From: Fermentimonas sp.
GTDB lineage: Bacteria > Bacteroidota > Bacteroidia > Bacteroidales > Dysgonomonadaceae
Assembly: GCA_015478775.1 (NCBI GenBank)
Contig: JADMKP010000012.1
Coordinates: 186,001 to 250,000 of the forward strand
Length of the DNA stretch: 64,000 nt
Direction of reading: 5' to 3'
Made by a program: the position numbers and the translations under genes. This document shows positions 42,118 through 61,618 of this stretch, piece by piece. The first letter of the stretch is position 1. Each line of letters opens with the position of its first letter. Under the pieces are notes generated by a model. It saw nothing but the letters and a program-made list of their open reading frames with translations. It searched no databases and had not been told where the DNA came from.

Positions 42118-45100
42118 ATGAACAAATTTAAATCATCGTGTAGTCATTTAACCGAAAAAGTACCCATTAAACATTTTTTATTGATTTCCCGAACAACACT
42201 AATTCTATTATTTACTTGTGTCTTCTTTACGATGGCACAAAATGAAAAGAGCATCTCGGGAAGAGTACTAGATGAACAGGGTGTGCCAATTATTGGCGCT
42301 AACGTGATAGAAGTAGGCGAAACAACAAATGGAACAATCACAGATGTTGATGGGTTATTTTCGCTGAACGTAGGTAATAATGCAACCATACAGGTTACTT
42401 ATATTGGCTACCTTTCTCAGAATATTAACACCGCAGGAAGAACAGATTTTGAAGTTATTTTAATAGAGGATACTCAATCACTTGAAGAGTTGGTAGTAGT
42501 AGGTTACGGTGTTCAGAAAAAGAAACTTGTAACAGGAGCAAATGTTTCTGTTGGAGCTGATCAAATTCAGAGTCAAAACGCTATAAATGCGCTTGATGCT
42601 ATTCAGTCTTTTACTCCAGGAGTAAATATTACGCAATCTTCTGGTATGCCAGGACAAGGTTTTCAGGTAAATATTAGGGGTTTAGGTACAATTGGTAACT
42701 CACAGCCACTTTATGTAATAGATGGAGTTGCCGGGGGTGATATCAACAATCTTAACCCTTCTGATATAGAATCGATAGACGTATTAAAAGATGCAGCATC
42801 CGGAGCAATTTATGGTGCACGCGCAGCTAACGGTGTTATTCTTGTGACAACTAAATCGGGAAGATTGGGTAAAATTCAAGTTTCTTATGATGGATTTTAT
42901 GGTTTCCAGAATTTAGTTAAAAAACCTAAGTTGTTAAACGCACAACAATTTATGGAAATATATAATGAAGAGCGTGTAACAGGTGGTGCAGGAGCACCTC
43001 GTGATTTTTCACAAGCTATTCCCGGACTATATCAAAAAATAACAAGCGGACAGTGGAATGGTACGAACTGGATAGAAGAAATTAGTAATAAGAATGCTCC
43101 AATTCAGAATCATGCTCTGAATATATCGGGTGGATCGGGACAGTCTGTTTTTTCTCTTGGCTTTTCTTATGCTGGTCAGGAAGGTATTCTTGGCGTTCCT
43201 GTTCAACCAAAACACGATAGATATACTGTTAGGTTAAATAGCGATCATGTTATTCTTAATAACAAAGAATTTGATGTAATTAAAATTGGACAAACTTTCA
43301 ATTATAGCTTTAGAAATCGTTCGGGTATCGCAATTGGTGGCATGTATTATAACGATATTAGGAATATGTTAGTTGGTAGCCCTTTAGTTCCAGCTTATAA
43401 TGATGCAGGAGAATATTTTGCAAGAGCAGATGTTCAGGCATCTGGTTTAGAAGGCTTATCTCCCAGAATCTATAATCCTAAGGCACAGATGGCTTTGAAT
43501 AGGGGTATGAACGAAACTCAAAATTATAATGTAAATAGTAATGCATACCTTGAAATTCAGCCTATTAAAAATTTAATATTTAGAAGTAACTTTGGATATA
43601 GAATGTTTGCAGACAGTCATAGGCAATATGAACCTGCTTTTGATTTAGCAGGAGACGTTACTTTAACTCCGGGACGAATTAATCAATCGGCAGGCACAGG
43701 TTATGCATGGACTTTTGAGAATACACTTAATTACTCATTAAAGAAAGATGGTCACAATGTGGATATACTGGTTGGCCAATCTGCCGAGAAGTGGGGTTAT
43801 GGATATAGAATGTCAGCAACCAATGCCAATCCAACATTCGACGGTTATAAATATGCTTATCTAGATAATACTGATGGACTTACATCGGGTGTTACAAGTA
43901 TCTCGGGATCACCTCATCCTCAAGGAGCTTTGGCATCATTCTTTGGTAGGGTAAATTATGACTTTATGGAAAAATATTTGCTTACTTTAGTTATGAGAGC
44001 CGATGGTTCATCAAATTTTGCTAAAGGTAATCAATGGGGATATTTTCCATCAATTTCTGCCGGTTGGGTTATTACAGAAGAAGAATTTATGAGAGATAAT
44101 TCTTTTGTTGATTTCTTAAAATTGAGAGCTAGCTGGGGTCAGAACGGTAATGCTGATATCGATCCTTTCCAATACTTAAGTCTTATAGCTTTTGATAATG
44201 TTAATAACTATAGATTTGGAAATGACAGGAATAAAATGCAACTAGGTGGTTATCCAGCCATTCTTCCAAATCAAGATGTATCTTGGGAAACATCGGAACA
44301 GCTGAATTTTGGAGTTGATGCGTTTTTCTTAAAATCAAGACTTCAAGCAACTTTTGATTTGTATAATAAAACAACCCGCGACTGGCTTCTTCGTGCTCCA
44401 GTAGCTGATATTCAAGGACCTCAAGGTGCATTTGTGAACGCCGGAGATATTGAAAACAAAGGTTTTGAATTGGGTTTAAGATGGAGTGATAGAATTCAGG
44501 ATTTCAACTATAGCGCTCACTTTAATATTTCTCAAAATAAGAATGAAGTTACGCGCATGGGTGATAATACCGGTTTTATTGAAAGTAATGGAAGCATAAT
44601 TTCACAAGGAACTGATCCGGTTTGGCGTGTTCAGGTAGGATATCCTGTTGGTTATTTTTATGGATATAAAACAGAAGGCGTATTCCAAAATACACAGGAG
44701 ATAGCCAACTGGAACAGTGGATTCTTGCAAGCAGAACCACAACCTGGTGACCTTATATTCTCTGATACTAATGGAGACGGAATAGTTGATGCAAGTGACA
44801 AAACTCTTATCGGTAATCCGCATCCAAAACACAGAATTGGTTTTGGTATAAATCTGGGATATAAAGGATTAGACTTCTCTGTAACAGGTAAAGGTTCTTT
44901 CGGACATCAAATTCTACAATCGTACAGATCTTTTGCAGATAACGAATTTCATAATTACACTACAGAAATTCTGGGAAGATGGACAGGTGAAGGCACCTCT
45001 AATAAATTGCCAAGAATGACTGCAGGAAATGGTGTAAACCGTATAAATGTGTCGGACCTTTATATTGAAGATGGTGACTTTGTGAAAATTACTGATATCA

Positions 45101-45315
45101 CTCTAGGGTATGATTTTAAACGTTTAATGCCAAATATTGCATTACAACAGGTTCGTTTATATCTAACCGGAAAGAATCTTTGGACTATAACCAATTATTC
45201 GGGAATGGACCCTGAAGTGGGATATGGTGATGAACAGCCTTTTGTGTCTGGTATTGATTTAGGATTCTACCCAGCTCCAAAGAGTATACTTATAGGTGTT
45301 AACCTGAAATTCTAA
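42118..45315 (+). CDS. SusC/RagA-family TonB-dependent transporter (3-keto-sugar locus)
   Basis: A 1065-residue outer-membrane transporter with a late signal segment (about 20-41, 'TLILLFTCVFFTMAQ'). A carboxypeptidase-D-like domain follows (about 46-120, 'SISGRVLDEQGVPIIGANVI'), then 'LEELVVVGYGVQKKKLVTGA', a plug ('VNIRGLGTIGNSQPLYVIDG', 'DVLKDAASGAIYGARAANGV') and a barrel ending 'IGVNLKF'. It is the first gene of a plus-strand set with SusD, an isomerase-like protein, three Gfo/Idh/MocA oxidoreductases and ThuA. The imported glycoside is unknown. No SusR, hybrid two-component or sigma/anti-sigma regulator is adjacent. Confidence 0.95.
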   Translation: MNKFKSSCSHLTEKVPIKHFLLISRTTLILLFTCVFFTMAQNEKSISGRVLDEQGVPIIGANVIEVGETTNGTITDVDGLFSLNVGNNATIQVTYIGYLSQNINTAGRTDFEVILIEDTQSLEELVVVGYGVQKKKLVTGANVSVGADQIQSQNAINALDAIQSFTPGVNITQSSGMPGQGFQVNIRGLGTIGNSQPLYVIDGVAGGDINNLNPSDIESIDVLKDAASGAIYGARAANGVILVTTKSGRLGKIQVSYDGFYGFQNLVKKPKLLNAQQFMEIYNEERVTGGAGAPRDFSQAIPGLYQKITSGQWNGTNWIEEISNKNAPIQNHALNISGGSGQSVFSLGFSYAGQEGILGVPVQPKHDRYTVRLNSDHVILNNKEFDVIKIGQTFNYSFRNRSGIAIGGMYYNDIRNMLVGSPLVPAYNDAGEYFARADVQASGLEGLSPRIYNPKAQMALNRGMNETQNYNVNSNAYLEIQPIKNLIFRSNFGYRMFADSHRQYEPAFDLAGDVTLTPGRINQSAGTGYAWTFENTLNYSLKKDGHNVDILVGQSAEKWGYGYRMSATNANPTFDGYKYAYLDNTDGLTSGVTSISGSPHPQGALASFFGRVNYDFMEKYLLTLVMRADGSSNFAKGNQWGYFPSISAGWVITEEEFMRDNSFVDFLKLRASWGQNGNADIDPFQYLSLIAFDNVNNYRFGNDRNKMQLGGYPAILPNQDVSWETSEQLNFGVDAFFLKSRLQATFDLYNKTTRDWLLRAPVADIQGPQGAFVNAGDIENKGFELGLRWSDRIQDFNYSAHFNISQNKNEVTRMGDNTGFIESNGSIISQGTDPVWRVQVGYPVGYFYGYKTEGVFQNTQEIANWNSGFLQAEPQPGDLIFSDTNGDGIVDASDKTLIGNPHPKHRIGFGINLGYKGLDFSVTGKGSFGHQILQSYRSFADNEFHNYTTEILGRWTGEGTSNKLPRMTAGNGVNRINVSDLYIEDGDFVKITDITLGYDFKRLMPNIALQQVRLYLTGKNLWTITNYSGMDPEVGYGDEQPFVSGIDLGFYPAPKSILIGVNLKF

Positions 45316-45326
45316 TTATTTAATTT

Positions 45327-47093
45327 ATGAGTACAATGAAAAAAATTATATATTTAATTACTTTCCTTTTTCTGTTGAGTAGTTGTGAGGATTTTCTAAA
45401 TTTTGACCCTCTTACTGACAAGACATCAGCAACTTTCCCATCAACAGAGGAAGAAGCGAAACAGATGATGGCAGGAATTTACACAACAATGAATAACGAG
45501 AGTCAGCAAACTGATATGAGTTATTTCTTTGTGATGGAAATTGCCAGTGATGAAAAATTGGGAGGCGGTGGTGTAAACGACAAGAAAGCTCAGGCTTATG
45601 AAGCTTTCATGTCTTCTGATACCGAAATGTTAGGACATAACTGGGAAACCACTTATGAAGGGATTCATCGTGCAAACTTTGCTATTGAAAAACTAACTCA
45701 GGCAAGTGAGCAAGAAAGTAGCTTTTTAAGTACTAACTTAAATAATCAGTATAGAGGAGAGGCTCATTTTTTGAGAGCATTCTTTTATCATCGTCTTGCT
45801 ACTCTTTATGGCAGTGTTCCGCTGAAGATTACATCTGAACTTACTGAGCTTGCAGGAGCAACCCCAGAAGAGATTTTCGCACAAATAGCTGCTGATCTGA
45901 AAACAGCAATTGAACTACTTCCATCAACTGGATATTCAAGTACTGAAGAAGGACGTGTAACTAAATGGGCAGCTCAGGCAATGATGGCAAGAGTGTGGTT
46001 GTTTTACACTGGTTTTTATCAGAAGGCCGATTTACCTTTGGCCGATGGTGGTAGCGTAAGTAAAGCAGAAGTTATTACTTGGCTAACAGATTGTGTAACT
46101 AATAGTGGACACAGTTTAGTAGGCGATTTTCACGAATTATGGCCCTATACTAATTCACTTACTATTGGTGATTACGAATATATTCAGGATTATATGTCCG
46201 AAACCGGTAAAGATCTTAAATATGCAAGTGATAATGGAGCCAGAAGCCCTGAAACTCTTTTTGCTTTAAAGTTTTCCAACTTCGCAGGATGGGGAATTGA
46301 TAGAGGTTATGGAAATATGTATCAGCTCTTCTTTGCGTTAAGAGGGCTTCAGAATGTTGCTAATACATTTCCTTATGCCGGAGGATGGGGACAAGGTAAC
46401 TCAATACCAAAGCCAATGGTTGATGAATGGAGTGCTGATGAACCAGGCGATCCACGTTTAGGAGCATCGGTACTGGTTATAGATGAGGAACTTCCAAATT
46501 ATGCAATAGGTCAGTGGGACTTTGTTATGGAAAGTAACTGGTGGGGTAAAAAGTATAATGGTGTAGCTGTTAGAGTGCCAGAGGGCAGTGGATTCAAATA
46601 CCATAACGACTACAGTGTTATTATGTATGGAAATCAAGATAACCAACAGCTGTCACATGGCGACGATTTAATTTTCATTCGTTTTGCAGATGTACTTTTA
46701 ATGTTATCAGAGTTGACAGAAGATGCTCAGTATATGAACCGGGTAAGAGCTAGAGCTGGACTTGATCCTAAACCTTATTCAGTTGATAATATTAGAAAAG
46801 AGCGTAGATATGAACTGGCTTTTGAAGGCTTGAGATGGAATGATATGAGACGTTATGGCGATGCTTATGCCAAAGCTGCTCTTGAAAAACAGGTTGGTGC
46901 TCCTATATTAAATTATGGTGCTGCTGATACTCACAAGAGTTTGAATTCTAAAGGATATAGTGCAAGATATGACGAAACAAAAGGATTCTTCCCAATTCCA
47001 CAATCGCAGATAAATTTATCTGATGGATTGCTAGAACAGGTAGAAGGATATAAAGATGGTCAGGGTGGTATTTACCCAGGTTGGAGTAATTAA
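45327..47093 (+). CDS. SusD/RagB-family outer-membrane lipoprotein (3-keto-sugar locus)
   Basis: A 588-residue lipoprotein with lipobox Cys20 ('LLSSC') and the SusD opening 'CEDFLNFDPLTDKTSATFPS'. The TPR scaffold includes 'RGEAHFLRAFFYHRLATLYG', and the C terminus has 'IRKERRYELAFEGLRWNDMR', a SusD hallmark. It partners the SusC encoded 11 bases upstream as a lid that captures the ligand. A terminator-like hairpin follows. Confidence 0.94.
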   Translation: MSTMKKIIYLITFLFLLSSCEDFLNFDPLTDKTSATFPSTEEEAKQMMAGIYTTMNNESQQTDMSYFFVMEIASDEKLGGGGVNDKKAQAYEAFMSSDTEMLGHNWETTYEGIHRANFAIEKLTQASEQESSFLSTNLNNQYRGEAHFLRAFFYHRLATLYGSVPLKITSELTELAGATPEEIFAQIAADLKTAIELLPSTGYSSTEEGRVTKWAAQAMMARVWLFYTGFYQKADLPLADGGSVSKAEVITWLTDCVTNSGHSLVGDFHELWPYTNSLTIGDYEYIQDYMSETGKDLKYASDNGARSPETLFALKFSNFAGWGIDRGYGNMYQLFFALRGLQNVANTFPYAGGWGQGNSIPKPMVDEWSADEPGDPRLGASVLVIDEELPNYAIGQWDFVMESNWWGKKYNGVAVRVPEGSGFKYHNDYSVIMYGNQDNQQLSHGDDLIFIRFADVLLMLSELTEDAQYMNRVRARAGLDPKPYSVDNIRKERRYELAFEGLRWNDMRRYGDAYAKAALEKQVGAPILNYGAADTHKSLNSKGYSARYDETKGFFPIPQSQINLSDGLLEQVEGYKDGQGGIYPGWSN

Positions 47094-47129
47094 TTTTAGG
47101 TTTTTCTTCTTTTTTATTTAGTGGTTTTT

Positions 47130-47273: not shown

Positions 47274-48266
47274 ATGCCACGATTAGTCACTTTATATTCA
47301 CTTCAATGGGGAGATTTATCACTTGAAGAAGTTTGTATCAAGGCAAAAGAATTTGGATATGATGGTATTGAAATTGGTTTGCCCGATCACCTCGACGTAA
47401 GACAAAAGGATCCATCGTATTATCAAGGAATTAAAGATCTGTTAAAAAAGTATGGAATGGAGCTACGCACTATTTCATCACACTTAGTAGGTCAGGCGGT
47501 ATGTGACCAGATTGATGAACGACATAAAAGTATACTTCCTGATTATATTTGGGGCGATGGTAATCCTGAAGGTGTACGTACACGCGCTGCAGAGGAGCTA
47601 ATTCTTACAGCTAAAGCTGCTAAAGAACTTGGAGTTGATACCGTAGTGGGTTTTACAGGAAGTCCGGTTTGGCATCTACTTTACTCTTTCCCACCTTTCC
47701 CTCAAACTGTTATAGATGAAGGGTATAAAGAGTTTGCGAGACGATTTATCCCTGTTCTAGATGAATTTCAGAAACTTGGAGTAAAATTTGCACTTGAAGT
47801 TCATCCAACAGAGATTGCTTTTGACACATTTTCAGCTCGTAGGGCTTTAGATGCTTTAGATAATCATCCTGCATTTGGCTTCAACTATGACCCCAGTCAC
47901 TTGGGATATCAAGGAGTTGATTATGTTGATTTTATATATCATTTTTATGATCGCATTTATCATGTTCACATGAAAGATGTGTACTGGAGCGATACACCAA
48001 AGCAAGTTGGTGTTTTTGGAGGACACGTGCCATTTGGTGACCCTCGCCGTTTCTGGAATTTTAGAAGTGTTGGAAGAGGCAAAATTAATTTTGAAGAGAT
48101 CATACGTGCATTAAACACCATTGGTTATAATGGTCCTCTCTCTATTGAATGGGAAGACAGTGCGATGGATAGAGAACAGGGTGCAAGAGAATCGTGCGAG
48201 TTTACAAAGCGTATCGACTTCAGTACATCGGATCACGCATTTGATGCTTTCTTTTCCAAAGACTAG
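47274..48266 (+). CDS. Sugar phosphate isomerase/epimerase (xylose isomerase-like TIM barrel)
   Basis: A 330-residue cytoplasmic TIM-barrel protein of the AP-endonuclease-2/xylose-isomerase-like group. Likely metal ligands fall in the usual order: E175 ('LEVHPTEIAFD'), D206 ('NYDPSHLGYQ'), H232 ('YHVHMKDVYW') and E292 ('LSIEWED'). In 3-keto-glycoside loci such as the B. thetaiotaomicron BT2156-BT2160 region, proteins of this family accompany Gfo/Idh oxidoreductases and act on keto-sugars. No signal peptide is seen. The next gene, an oxidoreductase without a signal, is 53 bases away, so these two form the probable cytoplasmic part of the pathway. Confidence 0.85.
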   Translation: MPRLVTLYSLQWGDLSLEEVCIKAKEFGYDGIEIGLPDHLDVRQKDPSYYQGIKDLLKKYGMELRTISSHLVGQAVCDQIDERHKSILPDYIWGDGNPEGVRTRAAEELILTAKAAKELGVDTVVGFTGSPVWHLLYSFPPFPQTVIDEGYKEFARRFIPVLDEFQKLGVKFALEVHPTEIAFDTFSARRALDALDNHPAFGFNYDPSHLGYQGVDYVDFIYHFYDRIYHVHMKDVYWSDTPKQVGVFGGHVPFGDPRRFWNFRSVGRGKINFEEIIRALNTIGYNGPLSIEWEDSAMDREQGARESCEFTKRIDFSTSDHAFDAFFSKD

Positions 48267-48319: not shown

Positions 48320-49483
48320 ATGAAACAAAGAAAACTTAGAATGGGTATTATTGGTGGTGGCATAACAGGCTTCATTGGTGCTATCCATATCCGTTCGGCA
48401 ATAATGGAGAATATGATTGATTTGGTTTGTGGATGTTTCAGTTCAAAACCTGAAGTGTCTATAGAATCGGGACGTAGATGGTATTTACCCGATAACCGGA
48501 TATATAGTTCGTATCATGAAATGTTTGAAAAAGAAATGCAACTGCCGGAAGGAGAGCGCATGGATTTCGTGGCAATTGTAACTCCAAACCATTTACATTT
48601 TGAACCTGCCATGATGGCGTTAGAAAGGGGAATGCACGTAGTATTGGATAAGCCTATGACTTTTTCACTTGAAGAGGCAAAATTGCTTAAGGTGAAGGTG
48701 GAGGAGACTGGTCTTGTTCTTGCATTGACTCACGTGTATTCAGGTTATCCAGCTGTTAAGGAGATGAAATCAAGAATAGCAAATGGTGATATTGGTAAGC
48801 TGAGACGCGTTTATGTTGAATATCCACAAGGTTGGCTTTCGGAAAGAATTGAGCTGCAGAGTGGGAATAATGCAGGTTGGAGAACTAATCGTGCATACTC
48901 GGGTAAAGCAGGATCTATGGGAGATATCGGTACGCACGCATGGCATTTGTGTGAATACGTTACTGGATTAAAAGTTACTGAATTATGCGCCGAGTTAAAT
49001 TCATTTGTGCCTGGTAGAGAAATTGATGACGATGGTACAGCCATGATGAGAATGGAAAATGGTGTTAAGGCATTGCTTTCTGCGTCTCAGATTGCAATTG
49101 GAGAAGCAAACAGTTTTAATATAAGAGTTTATGGTGAAAAGGGAGGATTTAGATGGAAACAGATGAATCCCAACGAATTATATGTGCTGACAAGTGATAA
49201 AGAACAAATTCAACATATTGGAAATAACACTAATCTAGGCCAAATGGCTTCTTGGAATACCAGAACTCCTGCCGGACATCCTGAAGGTTTTTTAGAGGCA
49301 TTTGCTAATATCTATAGAAATTTTGCACATACGGTTACGACAAAAATGAATGGTGAAGAACCAACTGCCGAAATGCTTGATTTCCCTAACGTTCTTGACG
49401 GAGTGAGAGGGATGCAATTTATTGAAACCGTTGTAAAATCGGGTTGGAGTGATAATGAAAAATGGACCAGTTGGGTGGATTGA
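48320..49483 (+). CDS. Gfo/Idh/MocA-family oxidoreductase, cytoplasmic
   Basis: A 387-residue NAD(P)-dependent sugar oxidoreductase. The Rossmann start 'MGIIGGGITGFIGAIHIRSA' lies at the very N terminus with no export signal. The 'AIVTPNHLHFEPAMMALERG' strand and catalytic-lysine motif 'DKPMTFSLEEA' follow. The C-terminal domain has 'GSMGDIGTHAWHLCEYVTG', containing the family Asp/His pair. It probably oxidises or reduces C3 of a hexose unit; being cytoplasmic, it is the best candidate for reducing 3-keto-glucose back to glucose (inference). It lies 16 bases before a second oxidoreductase gene. Confidence 0.87.
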   Translation: MKQRKLRMGIIGGGITGFIGAIHIRSAIMENMIDLVCGCFSSKPEVSIESGRRWYLPDNRIYSSYHEMFEKEMQLPEGERMDFVAIVTPNHLHFEPAMMALERGMHVVLDKPMTFSLEEAKLLKVKVEETGLVLALTHVYSGYPAVKEMKSRIANGDIGKLRRVYVEYPQGWLSERIELQSGNNAGWRTNRAYSGKAGSMGDIGTHAWHLCEYVTGLKVTELCAELNSFVPGREIDDDGTAMMRMENGVKALLSASQIAIGEANSFNIRVYGEKGGFRWKQMNPNELYVLTSDKEQIQHIGNNTNLGQMASWNTRTPAGHPEGFLEAFANIYRNFAHTVTTKMNGEEPTAEMLDFPNVLDGVRGMQFIETVVKSGWSDNEKWTSWVD

Positions 49484-49499
49484 TAAATAATTAAATTGT

Positions 49500-50846
49500 A
49501 TGAAACGTAGAGATTTTTTAACTAATAGTGCATTAATAGGTACTGCAGCAATGATTCCGGGAATTTCAACTTCCTGTTCTGGGGCTAAAAAAGATTCAAA
49601 GAAGTTTACAAATGAAGAACTTGGTATGTATTCATTCGTAAATATTGCTCCTGATGGTGCGCCTTTAAAAGCGGCACTAATTGGTTGTGGTGATAGGGGA
49701 ACAGGTGCTGCTTGTCAGTTTATTGAAGCGGGACCAAATGTGTCAATTGTAGCTTTGGCAGATGTTTTTACCGACAGAATGGATGGTTGTAGAAAAACAC
49801 TTACCGAAAAGTTTAATAATGAAGTTGACGATAATATGTGTTTTATAGGTTTTGATGCCTATAAGAAGATAATGGAGCTGAGTGATGTTGATATTGTTCT
49901 TTTATGTACGCCAACTCATTTCAGGCCTGAACATTTTAAAGCAGCTGTTGAAGCAGGCAAACATGTTTTCATGGAGAAGCCATGTGCTGTTGATCCTGTG
50001 GGAATTCGTACTGTTATTGCTTCCTCAAAGGTTGCTGATTCTAAAGGACTAACTGTTATAACCGGTAATCAGAGAAGACACCGACGTGATTACTGGGAGG
50101 CTTATGCTCAATTAAAAAATGGATTGATAGGGGAAGTTGTTTCTGCTACTTCTCATTGGAACCAGGGTGCATGGTGGAATAAGCGTCAACTTCCTGAGTG
50201 GAATGACATGGAGTACTGTATTCGCAATTGGTTTAATATTAAATGGCTTAGCGGTGATCATATTCTCGATCAGGGAATACACAACATTGATGTAGTTACT
50301 TGGTTTATGGACGAAATGCCGATCAAAGCTGTTGGATATGGAGGGAGTGCACGAAGACTTACTGGTGACATATTTGATTTCTTCAGTGTTGATTATACTT
50401 ATAATAACAATAAGAGAATGCTTCATACAGCCAGGCAAATTGATGGGTGCGATGGTAATGTATCTGAACATTTATTGGGTACCAAAGGCACTGCACAGTT
50501 GAACGATAATGGAGAGATTAAATTTTTGGACTGGGAAGGAAATTTATTGTGGGAGTATGATTATGAAAAAAACCCTGTAAATAATCCTTATGTTCAAGAA
50601 CATATACATTTAATTGAGTCTGTGAGATTGAATAAAAAAATAAATCAAGCCGAGAGTCTGGCCTATTCAAATATGGTTGCTATATTAGGTAGAGAATCTG
50701 CGTATACCGGAAAAGCAATTAGCTGGGATGAAATTATGGCTTCTCAATTAAGGTATGGCCCCGAAATATATGAGATGGGACCACTTCCTGATTATCGTGA
50801 AAGAGTAGTTCCAATACCTGGCAGAGATCCGTCAGGTTCATATTGA
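49500..50846 (+). CDS. Gfo/Idh/MocA-family oxidoreductase, Tat-exported lipoprotein
   Basis: A 448-residue oxidoreductase whose N terminus 'MKRRDFLTNSALIGTAAMIP' is a twin-arginine signal that ends in a lipobox-like 'ISTSC' (Cys26). The enzyme is therefore probably folded with its nicotinamide cofactor and then anchored outside the cytoplasm. The Rossmann motif is 'AALIGCGDRGTGAACQF', the catalytic motif 'MEKPCAVDPVG' and the C-terminal 'GDHILDQGIHNIDVVTWFMD'. Exported Gfo/Idh proteins such as glucose-fructose oxidoreductase hold their cofactor tightly and cycle it between two sugars. A role in C3 oxidation of incoming glycosides is inferred from the locus. Confidence 0.87.
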   Translation: MKRRDFLTNSALIGTAAMIPGISTSCSGAKKDSKKFTNEELGMYSFVNIAPDGAPLKAALIGCGDRGTGAACQFIEAGPNVSIVALADVFTDRMDGCRKTLTEKFNNEVDDNMCFIGFDAYKKIMELSDVDIVLLCTPTHFRPEHFKAAVEAGKHVFMEKPCAVDPVGIRTVIASSKVADSKGLTVITGNQRRHRRDYWEAYAQLKNGLIGEVVSATSHWNQGAWWNKRQLPEWNDMEYCIRNWFNIKWLSGDHILDQGIHNIDVVTWFMDEMPIKAVGYGGSARRLTGDIFDFFSVDYTYNNNKRMLHTARQIDGCDGNVSEHLLGTKGTAQLNDNGEIKFLDWEGNLLWEYDYEKNPVNNPYVQEHIHLIESVRLNKKINQAESLAYSNMVAILGRESAYTGKAISWDEIMASQLRYGPEIYEMGPLPDYRERVVPIPGRDPSGSY

Positions 50847-53252: not shown

Positions 53253-56200
53253 CTATAACTCTTTAATGCGAATGTTTTTGAATTTAACTTTTGAACCATG
53301 CCCAAGGAAACCTATATGACCAGATTCGTTAAGTAAACCAGGGTGCTCAAGTCCATCAATTGTTCCATTTTTTGATGCTTCTCTAGGATTACCCTCTAGG
53401 ATAGTGATGCCGTTAAGTATGACTTTTATGTTATCACCATCAGCAATCACTTCTTGATAATTCCATTCACCTAACGGTTTTAGTGCTCCTCTTTTTGCAG
53501 GGATTACACCATAAACCGACCCATGATATTGATGATCTTGAAGGTCGGCATAAATAGCTGCATCATTATCTAAAATCTGTAATTCCATACCTACATAAGC
53601 AGCATCTCCCTCAATTGGAGTACGAATACCTAATCCATTATTAGCACCAGAGGTAAGCATAAATTCAAATCTGAGGTTGAAATTGTCAAACTCATCATTA
53701 GTATATAAGTTGCCACCAGAACCTGTTTTTGGAGGGTAAAGTACTAAATTGCCACTCTCAACAGTATAATCTCTCTTGTTGCCTATCCATTCATCAAGAT
53801 TAGATCCATCAAAAAGGATGCGGAAGCCTTCTTTTCTCTCTTCTACAGACAAATTATAGGGTTCGGGACGAGGGATTTCTTTAATATAGATATCTCTGTA
53901 TGCAACTTTGCTGCCATGGGCTTGAAGCTCTATTTGCTCAACTGGGAAAATAGACTGGTTTCTATTCCAGTAATTATCCAGAATAACATTGTCAGTAACC
54001 AGTTGTCCGTTCAACCAAACAGAAACTCTTTCTCCGATCATTGTAATTTTGAAGGTATTCCAATCGCCTACTCTCTGATCGGCAACTTTAAGAGGTTTAC
54101 TTGGGTTCTGCTGATTGTTATATAAACCACCTGAACCTACTTGAGCACCAACATCTACACGTGCTGTATCCCAAATTTGTACTTGGGGCGTCCCACGTAG
54201 ATAAAGACCTGCATCGGGTTCAGGACCTGGATATAATTTCCAATCGATTAGTATCTCAAAATCTCCATAGAGTTTTTCAGTACAAAGATTATCAAAACCC
54301 TTTCCGTCAAAAACAATCATGCCATCCTCAACTTTCCAGTCGAGTGCCATTTGCTTGTCTGCTTTTACCTGAGCAGCTGCCAGCTCTCTAGCACTCATCT
54401 TAGCTCTTGTAATTGGATTGCCAACAAGCCCCTTCCATCCATCAAGGTTTTTGCCATTAAATAGTGATATATATCCACCTTTAGAAGAGTTTTCTGAAAG
54501 ATATTTGTTGATCGATTGGCGTTGATATCCAGCATCGGGATTTGTAAGTGTTTTGCTAACTTTATTTAGAATAGCTGTAGTTTCTTCACTTGCAAATGCG
54601 GTATTTGATAGTGCAATATTCATAGCCGCCAATGCTGCAGCTTCACTTACTGCTTTATCATTCATAAACTCAGAAACAAAAATCATTGCAGTGTATTGTC
54701 CGGTATTACCAATCAGATTTAGAATATTTATCTTTTGTGCATCGGTTTGAGCAAATTCCATTGCCTCACGAAGATAAAGATATTTAATTTCTGATGTCTG
54801 GTTAGACCTTCTAATAATATTGATAAGAGCATTGGTTACGTTTTCAAGCTCACTCTTATTGGTGGTATTTCTTGCAATATCTAGAACAGGATAAATTGCA
54901 TCAAATGAATTAACACTGGCTAATGCACTAAGTGCAGCATCACGGTTTGTGCCTATTTCATTATTGTATGCTTCTGATATCTGCTCGATGGCATCAGTGG
55001 AGCCAATATTTGCAAGGGCGCTATAATATAAGTGTTTCTTGTTTGATTTACTTATTCTTTCACTTACTAACTTTGTTTGCTCATCTTTAGATATGTTTTT
55101 CAAAGCAGCATTAACAGATGATTGAACAGCTGAGACATATTCAGTATCAGTTTGTTCTAAAAGTGTAAACATATCGTTAAGATTTTCGTCTTTAACAACA
55201 TATTTTAGCGTGTTGGCAGCAGCTGCTTTTACAGCTTTGTTATCGCTGAACATCTGGTTGTATACCAAACTGTATTGATCTTCTAGAATACGACTTGCTA
55301 TAAGTTCCATAATAGCTATTTTGCCAGCATCTCCACTATTATCGAAAACTGAAGCTAGAGTGTAAGATATATCACCATCGATGGTCATGAGAGCATTCTT
55401 GGCAAAAGTTACAGTTTCTTGGTCTCCACTTTTTAATAGTCCTGCTAAAGCAATAATTGCATCTTCACCTCCAATATGTGAAAGTGATTGAGTTGCTGCT
55501 TTAAGAACCATTTTGTTGTTTGAGTTTAAATAGGGAATTACAAGTGAAGCAGATCCTGTTGATTTGTTATTACCAAGCCAATATATAAGTGATGTTTGAA
55601 CATCCTGAGATTTATTGGATGAAATTGCTTTTTGAATTAACTCAACCGACTTCTTATCATTCTCAAAAGGATATGCATGAAGTACATTGGTTATATATTT
55701 CAAATTGCCATCTTTAATAACTCCTTTTAGAATTTTGGATGCATTTGCATTTGGTTGTTCTAATAGAATGTTGGTAGTTGCAATCTTTAGTTCATTTTTA
55801 TTTTGCTTTTTTGCTTTAGAAAGAATATAATTTGCTTCTTTCGCAACAGTTTTAGTCTCTGAAGATCCTAATCTACCTAGTAACTCAATATAATAACCTA
55901 AAGCATTGTTTTTGTGATAAGTTAAACCCACTTTTTCTGCAGCATTTTTTAATGGTTTTATCGAATCTTTTCCACCTAACTTAGCCAGTGCACTTAGAAG
56001 TACTCGCTCCATTTTACTTGATGGGTTATTACTTAACATATTAAGTAGAGCTGGTTCGGCTTTGCTAAATTTGATTTGTCCAAGTGCATTTACAAGATGC
56101 AGATTAATCTCCTCAGTATTGCTGGCATTAAGTCTGTTTAAAAGAGCATTGCCAGCATTCTCAGTGCCAATAGAAACTAATGCTGCGGCAGCCGCCCCAG

Positions 56201-56642
56201 AAAGGTAGTCGTTATTTAGATAAGACGAAAGCACATCCACATTATCGTCAGAACCAACAGTTCTGAGTTGGCGAATAATAAATGCTTTAATCTCTTTATC
56301 TAATGATTGACCCAATGCCTTTTCATAAGCATTTGCGGCTACTGAGCGTTTAGAGTCATCTTTTGATACAAAATGAGACCACCCGCTTATTGCAAAATCA
56401 TATGTCTCATTGCTCATACTTCCAGGAGGATTCATTCTGCCAATAAGATCTAGTAGTCCCTCTTCACCTGTAGAAACTAGGTCGGCAATTACAATATTAT
56501 ATTGTGCAGGAGTCTCTGCGGGTAATTGTGCAAGAGCATCTGCAATAATAGTAGATGTTGTTCTACCCTTTGCCAGTTGAGCCTGTGCATTTACTACAAA
56601 CAAAAGGCAAAGACTTAGTATTATGTATTTTATCTGATTCAT
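53253..56642 (-). CDS. HEAT-repeat protein with two C-terminal DUF1080 (3-keto-disaccharide hydrolase) domains
   Basis: A 1129-residue exported protein with a Sec signal peptide ('ILSLCLLFVVNAQAQ'). Residues about 30-735 are a long series of HEAT/armadillo-like helical repeats ('ALAKLGGKDSIKPLKNAAEK', 'AATQSLSHIGGEDAIIALAG'). Two DUF1080 jelly-roll domains follow: about 742-946 ('FISLFNGKNLDGW'-type start, here 'YISLFNGKNLDGWKG') and about 947-1129 ('FRILFDGSNLDEWIGN'). DUF1080 enzymes cleave 3-keto-glycosides by elimination, so this protein likely breaks the bond after C3 oxidation. The HEAT solenoid may hold substrates or partner enzymes. The longest frame starts with TTG at 56675; the ATG at 56642, right before the signal peptide, is chosen. 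The oxidoreductase gene lies 20 bases upstream. Confidence 0.87.
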   Translation of the reverse strand: MNQIKYIILSLCLLFVVNAQAQLAKGRTTSTIIADALAQLPAETPAQYNIVIADLVSTGEEGLLDLIGRMNPPGSMSNETYDFAISGWSHFVSKDDSKRSVAANAYEKALGQSLDKEIKAFIIRQLRTVGSDDNVDVLSSYLNNDYLSGAAAAALVSIGTENAGNALLNRLNASNTEEINLHLVNALGQIKFSKAEPALLNMLSNNPSSKMERVLLSALAKLGGKDSIKPLKNAAEKVGLTYHKNNALGYYIELLGRLGSSETKTVAKEANYILSKAKKQNKNELKIATTNILLEQPNANASKILKGVIKDGNLKYITNVLHAYPFENDKKSVELIQKAISSNKSQDVQTSLIYWLGNNKSTGSASLVIPYLNSNNKMVLKAATQSLSHIGGEDAIIALAGLLKSGDQETVTFAKNALMTIDGDISYTLASVFDNSGDAGKIAIMELIASRILEDQYSLVYNQMFSDNKAVKAAAANTLKYVVKDENLNDMFTLLEQTDTEYVSAVQSSVNAALKNISKDEQTKLVSERISKSNKKHLYYSALANIGSTDAIEQISEAYNNEIGTNRDAALSALASVNSFDAIYPVLDIARNTTNKSELENVTNALINIIRRSNQTSEIKYLYLREAMEFAQTDAQKINILNLIGNTGQYTAMIFVSEFMNDKAVSEAAALAAMNIALSNTAFASEETTAILNKVSKTLTNPDAGYQRQSINKYLSENSSKGGYISLFNGKNLDGWKGLVGNPITRAKMSARELAAAQVKADKQMALDWKVEDGMIVFDGKGFDNLCTEKLYGDFEILIDWKLYPGPEPDAGLYLRGTPQVQIWDTARVDVGAQVGSGGLYNNQQNPSKPLKVADQRVGDWNTFKITMIGERVSVWLNGQLVTDNVILDNYWNRNQSIFPVEQIELQAHGSKVAYRDIYIKEIPRPEPYNLSVEERKEGFRILFDGSNLDEWIGNKRDYTVESGNLVLYPPKTGSGGNLYTNDEFDNFNLRFEFMLTSGANNGLGIRTPIEGDAAYVGMELQILDNDAAIYADLQDHQYHGSVYGVIPAKRGALKPLGEWNYQEVIADGDNIKVILNGITILEGNPREASKNGTIDGLEHPGLLNESGHIGFLGHGSKVKFKNIRIKEL

Positions 56643-56662
56643 TTTATGAAAATATTTTAAGA

Positions 56663-57916
56663 TTAAATTGACCAAGGAGAACGCATAGGCTGATTGATAT
56701 AACGATTTGCCTCTTCATCATTCAAAAACCTTTCGTTTATAGGATCATATTCTAATGTTCTGTTTAATTGAAGTGCAACAAGTCCCATATTTACAATAGT
56801 GCAAGAACGATGTCCATTAATTTCATTTAATGCAAACTTTTGTCTAGTCTTTATGCTTTCAAGAAAATTAGTGTTTTGTTCTGCTGGTTCAGGCAATTGA
56901 GCCAATTTTTTCTCCCAGTTAGGAATGTCACAAACAAAGTTTTTATATACATTGCCATTTGGTCCAGATATATAAGGAGTATTTGGATCTCCATACTCAT
57001 CACCCCAAAGTACTATTTGACATCCATCTTCATAAGTATATGTAATACTTCTCCATGTGCCTACTGCATCAAGGTGTTGTTGAGGTGCGTCAACCTCTAC
57101 TTTAACAGGCGACGTGTCGTCCTTGCCAAGAAGATACTGAACTGGATCTATGTAATGCTGTCCCATATCACCTAAGCCGCCCCCATCATAATCCCAGTAT
57201 CCACGGAAAGTATCGTGAACACGATGAGCATTGTAAGGTTTATAAGGAGCGGGTCCTAACCACATATCATAGTCAAGCTCCTGAGGAACAGGTTGTGGCT
57301 CGAGGTGATTTTTACCTACCCAATAGAATTTCCAGTCAAATCCTGTATGTTTACTGATTGTAAATTTCAATGGCCACCCCAACATTCCACTGTCAACAAG
57401 CTTTTTAAGAGGTTTTACAGTACTTCCTAGTCCATAGAAATTACTATCGAAACGGAACCATGTGTTAAGTCGAAATATATTGCCGTATTGTGCAATAGCT
57501 TCCCGAACTCTAATTCCTTCACCAATGGTGCGTGTCATTGGTTTTTCGCAGAAAATGTCTTTGCCAGCCTTAGCTGCTTCAACAGACATTAATCCATGCC
57601 AGTGGGGTGGAGTAGCGATATGCACAATATCTACATTCTTGTCGAGTATTAAATCGCGAAAATCATGATATTCACTTACCTTGTCTTTTAGCATAGAAGC
57701 TGCTTTTGCGAGATGATTTTTGTCCACATCACAAATTGCAGCAACTCGTGTATTGTCATACGGAATGTGATTACGTCCCATTCCGCCTACACCAATTATA
57801 CCCTTGGTAATCTCATCGCTGGGAGCGATCATGCCTTTGCCAAGCACGTTTCTGGGAACAATAGTAAGTAATGTTACTCCACCTAGTGTTTTTAAAAATT
57901 GTCTTCTGGAGGTCAT
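56663..57916 (-). CDS. Gfo/Idh/MocA-family oxidoreductase, Tat-exported
   Basis: A 417-residue oxidoreductase with twin-arginine signal 'MTSRRQFLKTLGGVTLL'. The Rossmann start is 'GIIGVGGMGRNHIPYDNTRV', then 'VHIATPPHWHGLMSVEAAKA' and catalytic motif 'CEKPMTRTIGEG'. The C-terminal domain has 'YDGGGLGDMGQHYIDPVQYL', with the family Asp and His. It is the first gene of a two-gene unit with the HEAT-DUF1080 protein, making it the likeliest enzyme to produce the 3-keto substrate for that hydrolase in the same compartment. Confidence 0.88.
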   Translation of the reverse strand: MTSRRQFLKTLGGVTLLTIVPRNVLGKGMIAPSDEITKGIIGVGGMGRNHIPYDNTRVAAICDVDKNHLAKAASMLKDKVSEYHDFRDLILDKNVDIVHIATPPHWHGLMSVEAAKAGKDIFCEKPMTRTIGEGIRVREAIAQYGNIFRLNTWFRFDSNFYGLGSTVKPLKKLVDSGMLGWPLKFTISKHTGFDWKFYWVGKNHLEPQPVPQELDYDMWLGPAPYKPYNAHRVHDTFRGYWDYDGGGLGDMGQHYIDPVQYLLGKDDTSPVKVEVDAPQQHLDAVGTWRSITYTYEDGCQIVLWGDEYGDPNTPYISGPNGNVYKNFVCDIPNWEKKLAQLPEPAEQNTNFLESIKTRQKFALNEINGHRSCTIVNMGLVALQLNRTLEYDPINERFLNDEEANRYINQPMRSPWSI

Positions 57917-57964
57917 TGATAATATAATATTTGAATTAATAATGATAAGATTTTATCTATTTTA

Positions 57965-57972: not shown

Positions 57973-58178
57973 GGGATTTTTCGATAAATACCTTGTTAGT
58001 TTGTCGAATAAAAAAATACTTTACATAATAACATCTTACTTCTGTAAATTTTGTTTGACTTATGAAGTCAGCTTAGATCATTGAATCATTTCAACCGGAG
58101 GGTGCTTAGCTTGATTATTTATCAGTAAATCTAGTTTAACAATACTTTTTAAACCGATAATAGATTATTATAAGTTAT

Positions 58179-59420
58179 TTATTTTTGGTTTTCTTCTATT
58201 AACTTCGCCCATTGCATTACATTGGCAGGAGGGCGTTGTGCTTGCAATTCTTTTTTCATGAAATCCATATAAGGGGCAACATGACTAAAGAATTGATAGT
58301 ATCCCTGACAGAGATAATTAAGTCCTTCATTTCCATACTTATCTTTTATAAAACGATTCTTAGGACACTCACCATAACATGCAAACAAGAAGTCGCACTC
58401 TCTGCACTGTTGAGGTAAACTGTTGAATTTGTCATTACCAAACTTCAACTGTTCATCAGAATACATCATAGAGGTTAGTGATTTACTGTTTATGTTCCCC
58501 AAACGATATTCGGGGAAAACAAAATGATCGCAAGAGTAAACGTCACCATTAAACTCCATTGCACCTGCGTGGCCACAGGTTTTTGCCATAGTGCAAACAC
58601 CAGGTTGTTCACCCACCCAGTTTGCCAGAGTTGAGTCGAATATCTGAATAAATATCTTGCCAACATCATCCTTCACCCACTCATCAAATATTGCACATAA
58701 GAAATTTCCCCATTTAGCGGCAGGTACACTATAATGAGCCAAATCAACCTCCTCCGCCTTTTGCCTAGCAGTTGCAAGTTTCAAAAGAGATATAGTATTG
58801 TCTTTTCTGATTCGCTCCACAATAGGAGTAAATTGTATATACTGGCAGCCAATCTCCTTAAAGAAGTTGTAAAATTCAATCGGGTAGTCTACATTATAAT
58901 CGTTAACTACCGCCAGACAGTTAAACTCCACATCGTGTTTCTTCAAGAGTTCAATACCTTTCATTACACGATGAAAAGAGGGGCGTCCCATTTTATCACG
59001 ACGATATTCATCATGAAACTCTTTAGGACCATCAACTGATATTCCAACAAGGAAATTATTCTCCTTAAAAAACTTACACCACTCGTCATTCAGTAAAGTG
59101 CCGTTTGTTTGAATAGAATTTTCTATATGTCGTCCTCTTCCATATTGCTTTTGTAACTCTATTGCTCTCTTATAAAAAGATAAAGGTCGCATAAGTGTTT
59201 CACCCCCATGCCATGTAAACATTATCTCTTGCATGGTTTGAGATTCAATATACTGTTTTATGAACCTCTCCAGAAGATCTTCACTCATTACGGGATTCTT
59301 CCTTTCATAAAGATTCTCTTTCTCTAAGTAGTAGCAGTAATCACAATCTAAGTTGCACTTAGACCCCACGGGTTTAAGCATAACATACATCGGTTTAGCG
59401 AATGGTGCGAAAGTTGACAT
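58179..59420 (-). CDS. Anaerobic sulfatase-maturating enzyme (radical SAM/SPASM)
   Basis: A 413-residue cytoplasmic radical-SAM enzyme that oxidises an active-site Cys or Ser of sulfatases to formylglycine without oxygen. The radical-SAM cluster motif is C22-x3-C26-x2-C29 ('CNLDCDYCYYLEKENLY'), followed by 'FTWHGGETLMRPLSFY' and 'NSIQTNGTLL'. The C-terminal SPASM part has 'CGHAGAMEFNGDVYSCDHFV' and 'CRECDFLFACYGECPKNRF', giving two auxiliary clusters. Length and motifs fit the anSME group, though other SPASM maturases are related. No sulfatase is encoded in this window. It lies 19 bases after an oxidoreductase gene and is probably co-transcribed with it. Confidence 0.88.
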   Translation of the reverse strand: MSTFAPFAKPMYVMLKPVGSKCNLDCDYCYYLEKENLYERKNPVMSEDLLERFIKQYIESQTMQEIMFTWHGGETLMRPLSFYKRAIELQKQYGRGRHIENSIQTNGTLLNDEWCKFFKENNFLVGISVDGPKEFHDEYRRDKMGRPSFHRVMKGIELLKKHDVEFNCLAVVNDYNVDYPIEFYNFFKEIGCQYIQFTPIVERIRKDNTISLLKLATARQKAEEVDLAHYSVPAAKWGNFLCAIFDEWVKDDVGKIFIQIFDSTLANWVGEQPGVCTMAKTCGHAGAMEFNGDVYSCDHFVFPEYRLGNINSKSLTSMMYSDEQLKFGNDKFNSLPQQCRECDFLFACYGECPKNRFIKDKYGNEGLNYLCQGYYQFFSHVAPYMDFMKKELQAQRPPANVMQWAKLIEENQK

Positions 59421-59439
59421 AATTTATCCTTTAGGTAAT

Positions 59440-61128
59440 TTATCCCCGGGTTATTTCTTCTTTATCTGAATCCCAATACATTGTTCTGCCTTCAAGATAA
59501 GCGCGAGTGCCCATATGAGCAGTAATAGCTTCTTGAAATCCTTGATCTAAATCACATGATGGCTTCTTGCCTGTTCTAATACATTCTAGCCATTCTCTCA
59601 AATGCAAATATGTTGTATTATACCTTTTGCCTCCAACATACGAGTACAACAGACCTCGCTCAGCAAAATACAGCTCGGTTGCAGATGTAATTGCATCTAA
59701 ATCTCTACCAGGAACATAGTGATAAAATGGCTCACCAGTTTTAATTTTACCTTCGGCTATCTTGTCTTTATATCTTTCAGATCTGGGATCGATTGTAACT
59801 GAAAGCGAACTGCCAACCTCCATAGTTGCATCATGACCCATAATTTTTCTAGGACGTTTAAACTGGCTAGCCAAGGTTGCTGAGTATAACATTGCTAATC
59901 CCCTGTCGGCATACTCAAATGTAGTATGAAGCACATCAGGAACAGTTCTGCCATCCTTAAAAAAATACACACCTCCCGAAGATGTTGCAGAAGATGGGAT
60001 GCCCAGCTTTAGTATTTGGTTCATTGCATCATACTCATGAGTTAGCAAGTCGCCACTCAACCCTGTACTATAATCCCACCAACATCTCCAGCGGAAAAAT
60101 CTTTCGAGGCTGAACTTATCCCGTGGCTCTGGCCCAACATAAGATGCTAATCCGGCCGAAGTCATATAATCCATATATTCTTTAATCCTTTCTGGGTCTC
60201 CATCAAACTGTTTCCAATCGATGGTTTTAGGATTAGCCTTAGGGTTAATATCATACACCCAAGCACCATTAGGGGCGTTTCTATTAGTACCAGTTTCTAT
60301 AAGAGTGATAGGACCCAATAACCCTCTATCAATTATCTCACGTGCTCTTTCATAAGCCTCAATTTGTCTGTTTTGATGACCAAGTTGAAAAACCACATTA
60401 CTATTTCTCACAAGTTCTCTTAATGCATACGTTTCAGGTACAGTCCAGGTCATTGGTTTCTCCAAATATATATGTTTACCTGCTTTCACTGCATCCATAG
60501 TCATTTGTCCATGCCAATGGTCGGGTGACGCAATTACCACAGCATCCACATCATCCGCAGCAAGTAGATCTTTGTAATTTAAATATCTTTTTGGGCTACC
60601 ACCATATTTTCCATTTAAACCCTCTCTATATATATTTGCACCAGCAGCAATTCCCTCCTCGGCGTGCACATCAAAAATATCACAAACAGCAGTAATTTTA
60701 ATATTAAGATCTTCCTGTTCAATAAAATCCTGATATCTCTTATTAGCTGAGTCTGCCTTATTTAAGTTTATTAGCTCCTGCACTTCAGCTGGAGTTGTAT
60801 ACCCTAGTCCACTTAACAACTGTTTTCCCCTTATGCCTGTGCCAATAATTCCTATTCTAATAGTTTCACCGTCGGTTGCTGATGCAGCAAAAGGGGTAAC
60901 TTCTGTAGGAAAATGAAACATATCTGCTGCGGAACGATTGAAAATCTCGTTCTTCCTTTTTTTATAAACACCATATGCCATTGCACCTAAAACTGGCACG
61001 GTAGCCAAGGATTTTATAACATCGCGTCTCCCTTGAGAAACTGGTTTGCTTTTATTATCTACAGATTTACTCTCGTCCGACTTACTGTTCTTGTCGTTAT
61101 TTATATTGTTTTTATTATTTTCTGACAT
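59440..61128 (-). CDS. Gfo/Idh/MocA-family oxidoreductase with extended N terminus and Tat-like signal
   Basis: A 562-residue oxidoreductase, longer than its four paralogues here. A hydrophilic Asn/Lys/Ser-rich leader (about 1-31) precedes a twin-arginine-like segment ('QGRRDVIKSLATVPVLGAMA'). The Rossmann motif is 'IGIIGTGIRGKQLLSGLGY', then 'VVIASPDHWHGQMTMDAVKA' and the catalytic 'LEKPMTWTVPETY'. Longer insertions occur in the C-terminal domain. It may stay anchored to the membrane by the uncleaved signal. Its ATG overlaps the end of the DoxX gene by 14 bases, so the two are translationally coupled and may be functional partners. Confidence 0.86.
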   Translation of the reverse strand: MSENNKNNINNDKNSKSDESKSVDNKSKPVSQGRRDVIKSLATVPVLGAMAYGVYKKRKNEIFNRSAADMFHFPTEVTPFAASATDGETIRIGIIGTGIRGKQLLSGLGYTTPAEVQELINLNKADSANKRYQDFIEQEDLNIKITAVCDIFDVHAEEGIAAGANIYREGLNGKYGGSPKRYLNYKDLLAADDVDAVVIASPDHWHGQMTMDAVKAGKHIYLEKPMTWTVPETYALRELVRNSNVVFQLGHQNRQIEAYERAREIIDRGLLGPITLIETGTNRNAPNGAWVYDINPKANPKTIDWKQFDGDPERIKEYMDYMTSAGLASYVGPEPRDKFSLERFFRWRCWWDYSTGLSGDLLTHEYDAMNQILKLGIPSSATSSGGVYFFKDGRTVPDVLHTTFEYADRGLAMLYSATLASQFKRPRKIMGHDATMEVGSSLSVTIDPRSERYKDKIAEGKIKTGEPFYHYVPGRDLDAITSATELYFAERGLLYSYVGGKRYNTTYLHLREWLECIRTGKKPSCDLDQGFQEAITAHMGTRAYLEGRTMYWDSDKEEITRG

Positions 61129-61618
61129 AACTACTCCTATCTTTTAAAAATGCTCTGTCTAATCCTATTATTTTAGATGTGGGGAAGAAGTAAAGTACTA
61201 TTACTGCCACCATCATCACAAGGTTTTTATCCACCCATAAAGTCGTACCTTCAGAAGGAAGCATATACTCAACATTTAATAGAGGTGGGTGTGATAAATA
61301 ATATAATAGTAATAGAAAAGCGGCTGCCAAACACCCAACTCTCTCAAAGAGACCCAATATTAGAAGCAATCCAATAATCGTTAATCCATATATGTTTATA
61401 AAATCAGTTATTGCCATCATTGTTGGATTTTCAGCTATCATTGTAAATAATGGAGAAAAAATCCCTTTCGAGTCCATTAAGTAACCATATGATGTCCAAT
61501 TTGGTGATAATATTTTTGCCAATCCTTCGTATAAGAAAAACCAACCAATAAGAATTCTTAAAACAACCAACCAAGAAAGTTGTGCATTTGTGTATGCATA
61601 GCCTGAACCTTTATTCAT
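61115..61618 (-). CDS. DoxX-family membrane protein
   Basis: A 167-residue inner-membrane protein with four hydrophobic helices. The N-terminal 'AQLSWLVVLRILIGWFFLYE' with 'GLAKILSPNW' is the DoxX signature, and the later 'LGLFERVGCLAAAFLLLLYY' helix is also typical. DoxX/DoxD proteins have been linked to quinone-dependent oxidation (thiosulfate:quinone oxidoreductase), but most are uncharacterised. The longest frame starts at 61690, upstream of a promoter-like TATGTTTG at 61671-61678, so the ATG at 61618 is preferred. Overlap with the oxidoreductase gene suggests that DoxX takes electrons from that enzyme to the quinone pool (inference). Confidence 0.82.
   Translation of the reverse strand: MNKGSGYAYTNAQLSWLVVLRILIGWFFLYEGLAKILSPNWTSYGYLMDSKGIFSPLFTMIAENPTMMAITDFINIYGLTIIGLLLILGLFERVGCLAAAFLLLLYYLSHPPLLNVEYMLPSEGTTLWVDKNLVMMVAVIVLYFFPTSKIIGLDRAFLKDRSSYVRK

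Follow-up and report, generated by a model that had tools for sequence, protein, structure and literature searches.

Juxtaposed modules for predicted 3-keto-glycoside breakdown in a Fermentimonas genome, with a DoxX-paired Gfo/Idh protein as a candidate quinone-linked electron outlet

A stretch of 64,000 nucleotides from contig JADMKP010000012.1 of Fermentimonas sp. (assembly GCA_015478775.1; referred to below as the window) contains, at positions 42118-61690, two convergent gene runs, the left one on the plus and the right one on the minus strand. At the head of the right run lies a DoxX-like membrane protein (61115..61690), directly upstream of Gfo5 (59440..61128), a 562-residue oxidoreductase of the Gfo/Idh/MocA superfamily, and this pair is the main subject here. 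The run continues with a radical SAM/SPASM anaerobic sulfatase maturase (58179..59420), a further Gfo/Idh/MocA oxidoreductase named Gfo4 (56663..57916), and the partner of the latter, HEAT-DUF1080x2 (53253..56675), which carries HEAT repeats and two DUF1080 domains. The left run encodes a SusC-like TonB-dependent receptor (42118..45315), a SusD-like protein (45327..47093), the xylose-isomerase-like TIM barrel XylI (47274..48266), three more Gfo/Idh/MocA oxidoreductases, Gfo1 (48320..49483), Gfo2 (49500..50846), and Gfo3 (50889..52235), and a ThuA-like protein (52270..53067).

Genes were called as open reading frames (ORFs) and the 12 encoded proteins were scanned against Pfam, while starts and N-terminal signals were judged by eye. 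The DoxX protein matches PF07681 with 33.1 bits (cut-off 23.6) and displays three hydrophobic peaks and the invariant charged residues R21, E31, and K35, numbered from its likely start at 61618, which is also where a preliminary description of this DNA had ended the interval. All five Gfo proteins match the PF01408 Rossmann domain with 50.5 to 74 bits (cut-off 24); Gfo1 additionally matches PF22725, and Gfo3 and Gfo4 match PF19051 (E 4.5e-142 for Gfo4). In HEAT-DUF1080x2, whose true start is likely the internal ATG at 56642, two stretches match PF06439 (280.9 bits, cut-off 26.8; whole-protein E 7.3e-84) and the HEAT repeats match PF13646 (E 2.9e-29). The left-run assignments rest on Plug and CarbopepD_reg_2 for SusC, PF14322 and PF07980, both above cut-off, for SusD, PF01261 (E 3.9e-43) for XylI, and PF06283 (E 5.7e-46) for ThuA. 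The gene list of the preliminary description, comprising SusC and SusD, XylI, five Gfo proteins, ThuA, and two DUF1080 domains, was thus confirmed by ORFs and Pfam, but DoxX, the HEAT repeats, and the sulfatase maturase had been overlooked. Its statement that no classical glycoside hydrolase is present also held, as the Pfam scan of the 12 proteins returned no glycoside hydrolase family; the interval therefore has the SusC-SusD pair of a polysaccharide utilisation locus but not, among these proteins, its classical hydrolases.

Conservation of the DoxX-Gfo5 pair was followed in 86 loci, 80 of them retrieved with Gfo5 from contigs of named genomes (the best 80 of 184) and 6 with DoxX. A Gfo5 match of usable length is present in 85, all except L204, and in 82 of these a DoxX gene lies on the same strand no more than 1.5 kb upstream. 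When the count is restricted to the 79 loci that offer 700 or more bases of upstream sequence, 6 of which had been found via DoxX, the pairing holds in 78; dropping those 6 leaves 73 testable loci and the same single miss, L207, in which one of two Gfo5 copies has no preceding DoxX and the other copy has one. A reverse search with DoxX, run on 296 sampled genomes, yielded six other genomes, all six with Gfo5 directly downstream. In the host genome, the sole Gfo5 match at E 1e-100 is the window copy. Beyond the ORF calls, tblastn recovered DoxX in L203 and L208 and the whole pair in L199 and L200. An apparent natural DoxX-Gfo5 fusion in L203 (a 677-residue frame) was rejected, DoxX being a separate frame and the extension an overlapping reading.

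The records with the pair (the best 80 of 184, plus 6) are named as Bacteroidota, Gemmatimonadota, Candidatus Aminicenantes, and Candidatus Marinimicrobia, together with one uncultured bacterium and one Desulfoplanes metagenome-assembled genome (MAG); the locus in the last is 70% identical to Bacteroidales copies and for this reason may be a stray contig. Among the same best 80, the Gfo5 sequences most similar to that of the window come from MAGs named as Bacteroidales, Fermentimonas, Porphyromonadaceae, and Proteiniphilum. Distances between DoxX proteins and between Gfo5 proteins correlate at 0.94 over 40 loci, compared with 0.85 and 0.81 when the neighbouring BT2158-type protein is taken as the partner, all three values being uncorrected for phylogeny. 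By profile, the nearest solved chains to Gfo5 are 8tdf and 8tdh (E 3e-34).

The neighbours of the pair link it to the BT2156-BT2160 system of Bacteroides thetaiotaomicron, which has in common with the window exported-looking Gfo/Idh dehydrogenases, a DUF1080 protein, and a xylose-isomerase-like TIM barrel. Among the 58 DoxX-Gfo5 loci with at least 4 kb of flank on both sides, a DUF1080 gene lies within 7 kb in 38 and a BT2158-like or related Gfo gene in 39. In three loci the Gfo neighbour passes the BT_2158_fam model (cut-off 750 bits): L161 from Proteiniphilum acetatigenes (912 bits), L165 from Dysgonomonas sp. BGC7 (895), and L177 from Parabacteroides distasonis (885). The L161 DUF1080 neighbour matches the solved chains 8v31, 8tda, and 8rr2 (E 1e-139 to 1e-137), and for the dehydrogenase of that locus the match to 8tdf has an E of 1e-248; entries 8tda-8tdi are presumably those of the study 'An alternative broad-specificity pathway for glycan breakdown in bacteria'. 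All 7 genomes with DoxX among the 296 fall within the 79 that carry a BT2158-like gene at E 1e-120 (hypergeometric probability 8e-5, or 3e-4 without the host genome, phylogeny being ignored in both). Two further arrangements were seen near the pair. An Aminicenantes MAG encodes a xylose-isomerase-like barrel and DUF1080 fused in one protein (L198:14250-15725), and in P. distasonis a gene for cytochrome bd subunit I, with subunit II recognised by eye, diverges from the BT2158-BT2157-DoxX-Gfo5 run (L177:2435-5183); neighbours of similar size to these cytochrome bd genes recur in related loci.

The host genome itself carries a BT2158-BT2157-BT2156 cluster on another contig (C10). It is syntenic with the Proteiniphilum records L145, L158, and L161, from two large genes on the left through the TIM-barrel gene, and lacks DoxX-Gfo5, which those three records hold between a 550-residue gene and BT2158. 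In the host, the pair sits instead beside Gfo4 and HEAT-DUF1080x2. Either the pair was relocated to another DUF1080 module or it was lost and separately gained; in both cases DoxX-Gfo5 points to work with DUF1080 systems generally.

The module flanking the pair in the window also recurs elsewhere. Nearly full-length homologues of HEAT-DUF1080x2 occur in four others of 296 genomes sampled from the phylum; directly upstream lies a Gfo4 homologue of 62-69% identity in three of these (G190, G002, and G162), and in the fourth (G014) the gene adjoins a different Gfo gene. G150 has a 70% identical Gfo4 beside a shorter DUF1080 protein. In L155, L156, and L192 the Gfo4 and HEAT-DUF1080 pair is followed directly by DoxX-Gfo5. 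Of 93 near-invariant columns in 43 BT2157-type proteins, picked by conservation alone, DUF1080 domain 1 keeps 38 and domain 2 keeps 40; at the place of one glutamate conserved in the BT2157-type proteins, domain 1 has Q831 and domain 2 has E1031. As side observations, 86% identical HEAT-DUF1080 homologues in G314 (C14) and G296 (C18) contain in-frame stops, owing to decay or assembly error, with the match ending at residue 940, short of the second DUF1080 domain, and a Fermentimonas MAG (L137:2594-9298) carries Gfo2-like, GH42, ROK, MFS transporter, and SIS-domain genes on one strand between DoxX-Gfo5 and Gfo4-HEAT-DUF1080.

From these arrangements we give an even chance to the reading that the interval juxtaposes separable modules for 3-keto-glycoside breakdown, with DoxX-Gfo5 as a quinone-linked electron outlet. 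Briefly, breakdown would proceed mostly outside the inner membrane: an oligosaccharide or a glycoside would enter through SusC and SusD and have its 3-hydroxyl group oxidised by exported Gfo/Idh enzymes that hold nicotinamide adenine dinucleotide (NAD) tightly, and exported HEAT-DUF1080x2, possibly together with ThuA and XylI, would cleave the 3-keto-glycoside. Gfo5 would be a membrane-anchored dehydrogenase of the superfamily exported by the twin-arginine translocation (Tat) route, and DoxX its membrane subunit, through which electrons would reach the quinone pool; the cycle would then not depend solely on reduction of 3-keto-glucose to glucose. Quinone reduction by DoxX is taken from what is known of the DoxD family and thiosulfate:quinone oxidoreductase (TQO). 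The preliminary description had likewise proposed oxidation to 3-keto-glycosides, a proposal backed by family membership and by the recurrence of the right-arm modules beside BT2158/BT2157-type genes, while the chemistry is only predicted.

Export is suggested by the N-termini as judged by eye: Gfo2 to Gfo5 have twin-arginine motifs, with a lipobox-like sequence in Gfo2, Tat-like N-termini in Gfo3 and Gfo4, and a hydrophobic stretch after the motif in Gfo5; ThuA and HEAT-DUF1080x2 have signal-peptide-like N-termini, and no export signal was seen in XylI or Gfo1. The host genome encodes TatC, and R34 and R35 of Gfo5 are each kept in 82 of 83 sequences. With no obvious cleavage site at its N-terminus, Gfo5 may carry a Tat signal anchor. 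Bound NAD and 3-oxidation are expected by analogy: the relative D3dgpA is described as containing NAD(H) in a nearly equimolar amount, with 3-oxo-glucose re-oxidising it (PMC11239390), and BT2158 as a periplasmic glycoside 3-dehydrogenase (PMC11300592).

Several observations weigh against the proposed outlet. The N-terminal stretch of Gfo5 is only moderately hydrophobic (best 17-residue mean hydropathy 1.35) and is flanked on both sides by basic residues, which makes the topology, including the signal anchor, uncertain. The DoxX protein scores 19.9 bits with the TQO model NF041179 (cut-off 300), the DoxX domain alone being matched, and no solved chain matches its profile at E up to 1. A DUF1080 gene is missing within 7 kb in 20 of the 58 well-flanked loci. 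None of the window Gfo proteins reaches the BT_2158 or BT_2159 cut-offs, the best BT_2158_fam scores being 137.4 bits for Gfo4, 120.6 for Gfo3, and 106.7 for Gfo5, and a BT2158 match above the curated cut-off is present in only 3 of the 7 DoxX genomes (16 of the 296 overall).

The strongest alternative, although one we consider somewhat unlikely, is an ordinary expansion of the BT2156-BT2160 pathway, in which the five Gfo proteins and the DUF1080 protein would serve different glycosides with internal recycling of NAD, and DoxX-Gfo5 would be an anchored, substrate-specific dehydrogenase with no quinone link. The recycling through 3-oxo-glucose described for D3dgpA (PMC11239390) fits this view. 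Paralogue expansion is moreover the rule in the host genome (2.9 Mb, 13 contigs), where 11 DUF1080 matches and 21 to PF01408 (20 above cut-off) make both kinds of enzyme common. What such an expansion leaves unexplained is that one Gfo subfamily is nearly always paired with DoxX in records of four phyla, with a higher distance correlation of Gfo5 with DoxX than with the BT2158-type neighbour, uncorrected as it is.

A more specific version of the quinone-linked outlet, which we put forward tentatively and regard as doubtful, is that Gfo5 represents a new kind of Gfo/Idh protein in Bacteroidota, Gemmatimonadota, Aminicenantes, and Marinimicrobia, a Tat-exported and anchored glycoside dehydrogenase, which would combine bound NAD with a flavin mononucleotide (FMN) covalently attached by ApbE at Thr484 of the sequence DAITSAT (residues 478-484) and pass electrons to DoxX and quinones. 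This idea stems from a conserved stretch, D-x-x-[ST]-[ST]-A-[TS]-x-x-Y-F, in which D478 is present in 83 of 83 Gfo5 sequences and position 484 is T in 80 and S in 3. According to PMC12052999, ApbE recognises D-x-x-[ST]-G-A-[ST], and replacement of the motif glycine by alanine, or of the alanine by valine, reportedly leaves about half of the flavinylation. The relaxed motif D-x-x-[ST]-x-A-[ST] occurs in 67 of 83 Gfo5 proteins in one count and 67 of 84 in another, and in none of the 52 other Gfo proteins that these loci encode; in the window, one of the four other Gfo proteins has it, Gfo3, at a different place (residue 116). Against flavinylation, the strict motif occurs in 1 of 83 Gfo5 sequences, the glycine position being Ser or Thr in the other 82, and the motif alanine is Pro in 15 of 83 (14 Parabacteroides/Tannerellaceae records and L188), and for these two reasons flavinylation is not the reading that we prefer.

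Gene neighbourhoods give a similarly mixed picture. An apbE gene lies within 7 kb in 10 of the 58 well-flanked loci, namely 6 of the 7 that are not from Bacteroidota and 4 of the 51 that are, and directly precedes doxX in L199, L200, L203, and L208. The Bacteroidota cases, L165, L172, L173, and L174 (Dysgonomonas-type, L172 being named Prevotella sp. 10(H)), have a tatC gene at most 7 kb away as well, and in L165 apbE and tatC come after the BT2158-type genes. Within 8 kb, no other called ORF of 11 apbE loci contains the strict motif, with the limits that the ORF caller misses genes and that some of these contigs are short. Among 48 other loci no shorter than 10 kb, apbE was also found in 4, near Gfo2-type genes (L093, L094, and L096) or a DUF1080 gene (L054), and in 0 of the 20 left-arm loci among them; since apbE occurs in those four, ApbE is not specific to Gfo5. 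No canonical flavinylation motif was seen near apbE in these four loci, of which L054 (host contig C10) has an ApbE confirmed by Pfam. The main texts of three flavinylation papers mention neither MocA nor DoxX, and Gfo is absent from the two in which that term was looked for.

Less probable still, and in our view improbable, is the proposal of the preliminary description that the two arms form one large functional locus for a single glycoside with its own SusC and SusD. The convergent arrangement in the host genome suits it, and so do the order SusC-SusD-XylI-Gfo1 found again in G296 and G318 and, in G318, the location of XylI about 12 kb from a 59% identical partial HEAT-DUF1080 of the same contig. 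To assess linkage, XylI, HEAT-DUF1080, and Gfo5 were searched in 120 genomes, the host and its relatives, counting one place per genome within 30 kb and excluding weak paralogues and three partial hits. XylI and HEAT-DUF1080 lie near each other in 2 of 22 genomes having both (the host genome G000 and G318), XylI and Gfo5 in 1 of 17 (the host only), and HEAT-DUF1080 and Gfo5 in 5 of 31 (G000, G299, G303, G335, and G356). Many of these genomes are fragmented, and a pair on two contigs is no proof of distance; in genomes of one to three contigs the counts are 0 of 5, 0 of 2, and 1 of 4, respectively, and single-contig genomes such as G310 carry the genes far apart. With linkage this low, one conserved two-armed locus was rejected: the conserved linkage in relatives that the preliminary description had expected is absent for the whole locus and present for its parts, so that the left arm, the Gfo4-HEAT-DUF1080 pair, and the DoxX-Gfo5 pair occur in relatives as separable modules.

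Within the left arm, XylI adjoins Gfo1 in 13 of 20 loci fetched from the 31 other genomes with XylI, and the full SusC-SusD-XylI-Gfo1 order is retained in 2 of the 20 (L216 and L220). In L220 (G318) two genes of glycoside hydrolase family 92 (GH92), a family with alpha-mannosidase activity, come after the left arm (15395-19000), a weak hint toward mannosides as substrate.

The idea that the right arm partly serves sulfated glycans is most improbable: the maturase does lie between Gfo5 and Gfo4, as a member of their run on the minus strand, and scores above cut-off (PRK13745 763.7 bits, cut-off 484; TIGR03942 506.5 bits, cut-off 349.45), but no second copy was found in the host genome, both sulfatases found there, serine-type with a SAPSR motif, are on other contigs, and by tblastn a maturase accompanies only 1 of the 86 DoxX-Gfo5 loci, L136, whose Gfo5 is 90% identical. 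As a part of the pathway it was accordingly rejected, and it probably acts in trans. Elsewhere in the window, translations inspected by eye indicate a further, separate SusCD locus that also encodes a sugar transporter and putative enzymes of the mannan type (5624-23670) and a heavy-metal efflux cluster consisting of a P-type ATPase, a membrane fusion protein, an outer membrane factor, and a CusA/CzcA-like pump (25734-35131).

Compared with the systems it resembles, the interval shows both likenesses and differences. Relative to BT2156-BT2160, the window enzymes fall far below the family cut-offs given above, the DUF1080 domain is doubled and fused to HEAT repeats, DoxX-Gfo5 is additional, and SusC and SusD lie beside. 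The DoxX/DoxD family includes TQO, and the window DoxX is likewise a small membrane protein with its domain above cut-off; unlike the TQO subunit, it is far below the NF041179 cut-off and has a Gfo/Idh enzyme as its partner. The likeness to ApbE-flavinylated extracytosolic redox proteins lies in the nearby apbE genes and the relaxed motif, the difference in the Ser or Thr at the glycine position of Gfo5. The LacABC dehydrogenase of Caulobacter is of an unrelated kind, and nothing like the LacABC proteins was seen in the interval. What LacABC shares with the route proposed here is 3-oxidation followed by a proposed periplasmic DUF1080 cleavage (PMC9007349). DgpA, D3dgpA, and other NAD-bound Gfo/Idh glycoside oxidoreductases belong to the same superfamily as the window enzymes, for which bound NAD and 3-oxidation are accordingly expected; D3dgpA is described as re-oxidised by 3-oxo-sugars (PMC11239390), whereas Gfo5 looks membrane-anchored and paired with DoxX. 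In the literature searched, from which subscription papers are largely missing, no paper brings DoxX together with DUF1080 or with Gfo, and a DoxX-quinone outlet for glycoside dehydrogenases was not found; this is no proof of novelty.

Glycoside 3-dehydrogenases of the exported Gfo/Idh type are believed to retain NAD in bound form, with no free NAD pool expected where they work, and this raises the question of how they are re-oxidised other than by reduction of a 3-keto sugar. Taken together, DoxX-Gfo5, often a neighbour of genes for the known dehydrogenases and DUF1080 proteins, is a concrete and testable candidate for an outlet to the quinone pool, and the picture of the host genome is corrected from a single locus to modules. 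If the outlet is real, one branch of the DoxX family would gain a role; if Gfo5 also proved to be flavinylated, ApbE flavinylation would extend to a large NAD-dependent superfamily, and periplasmic 3-keto-glycoside catabolism would be wired into respiration.

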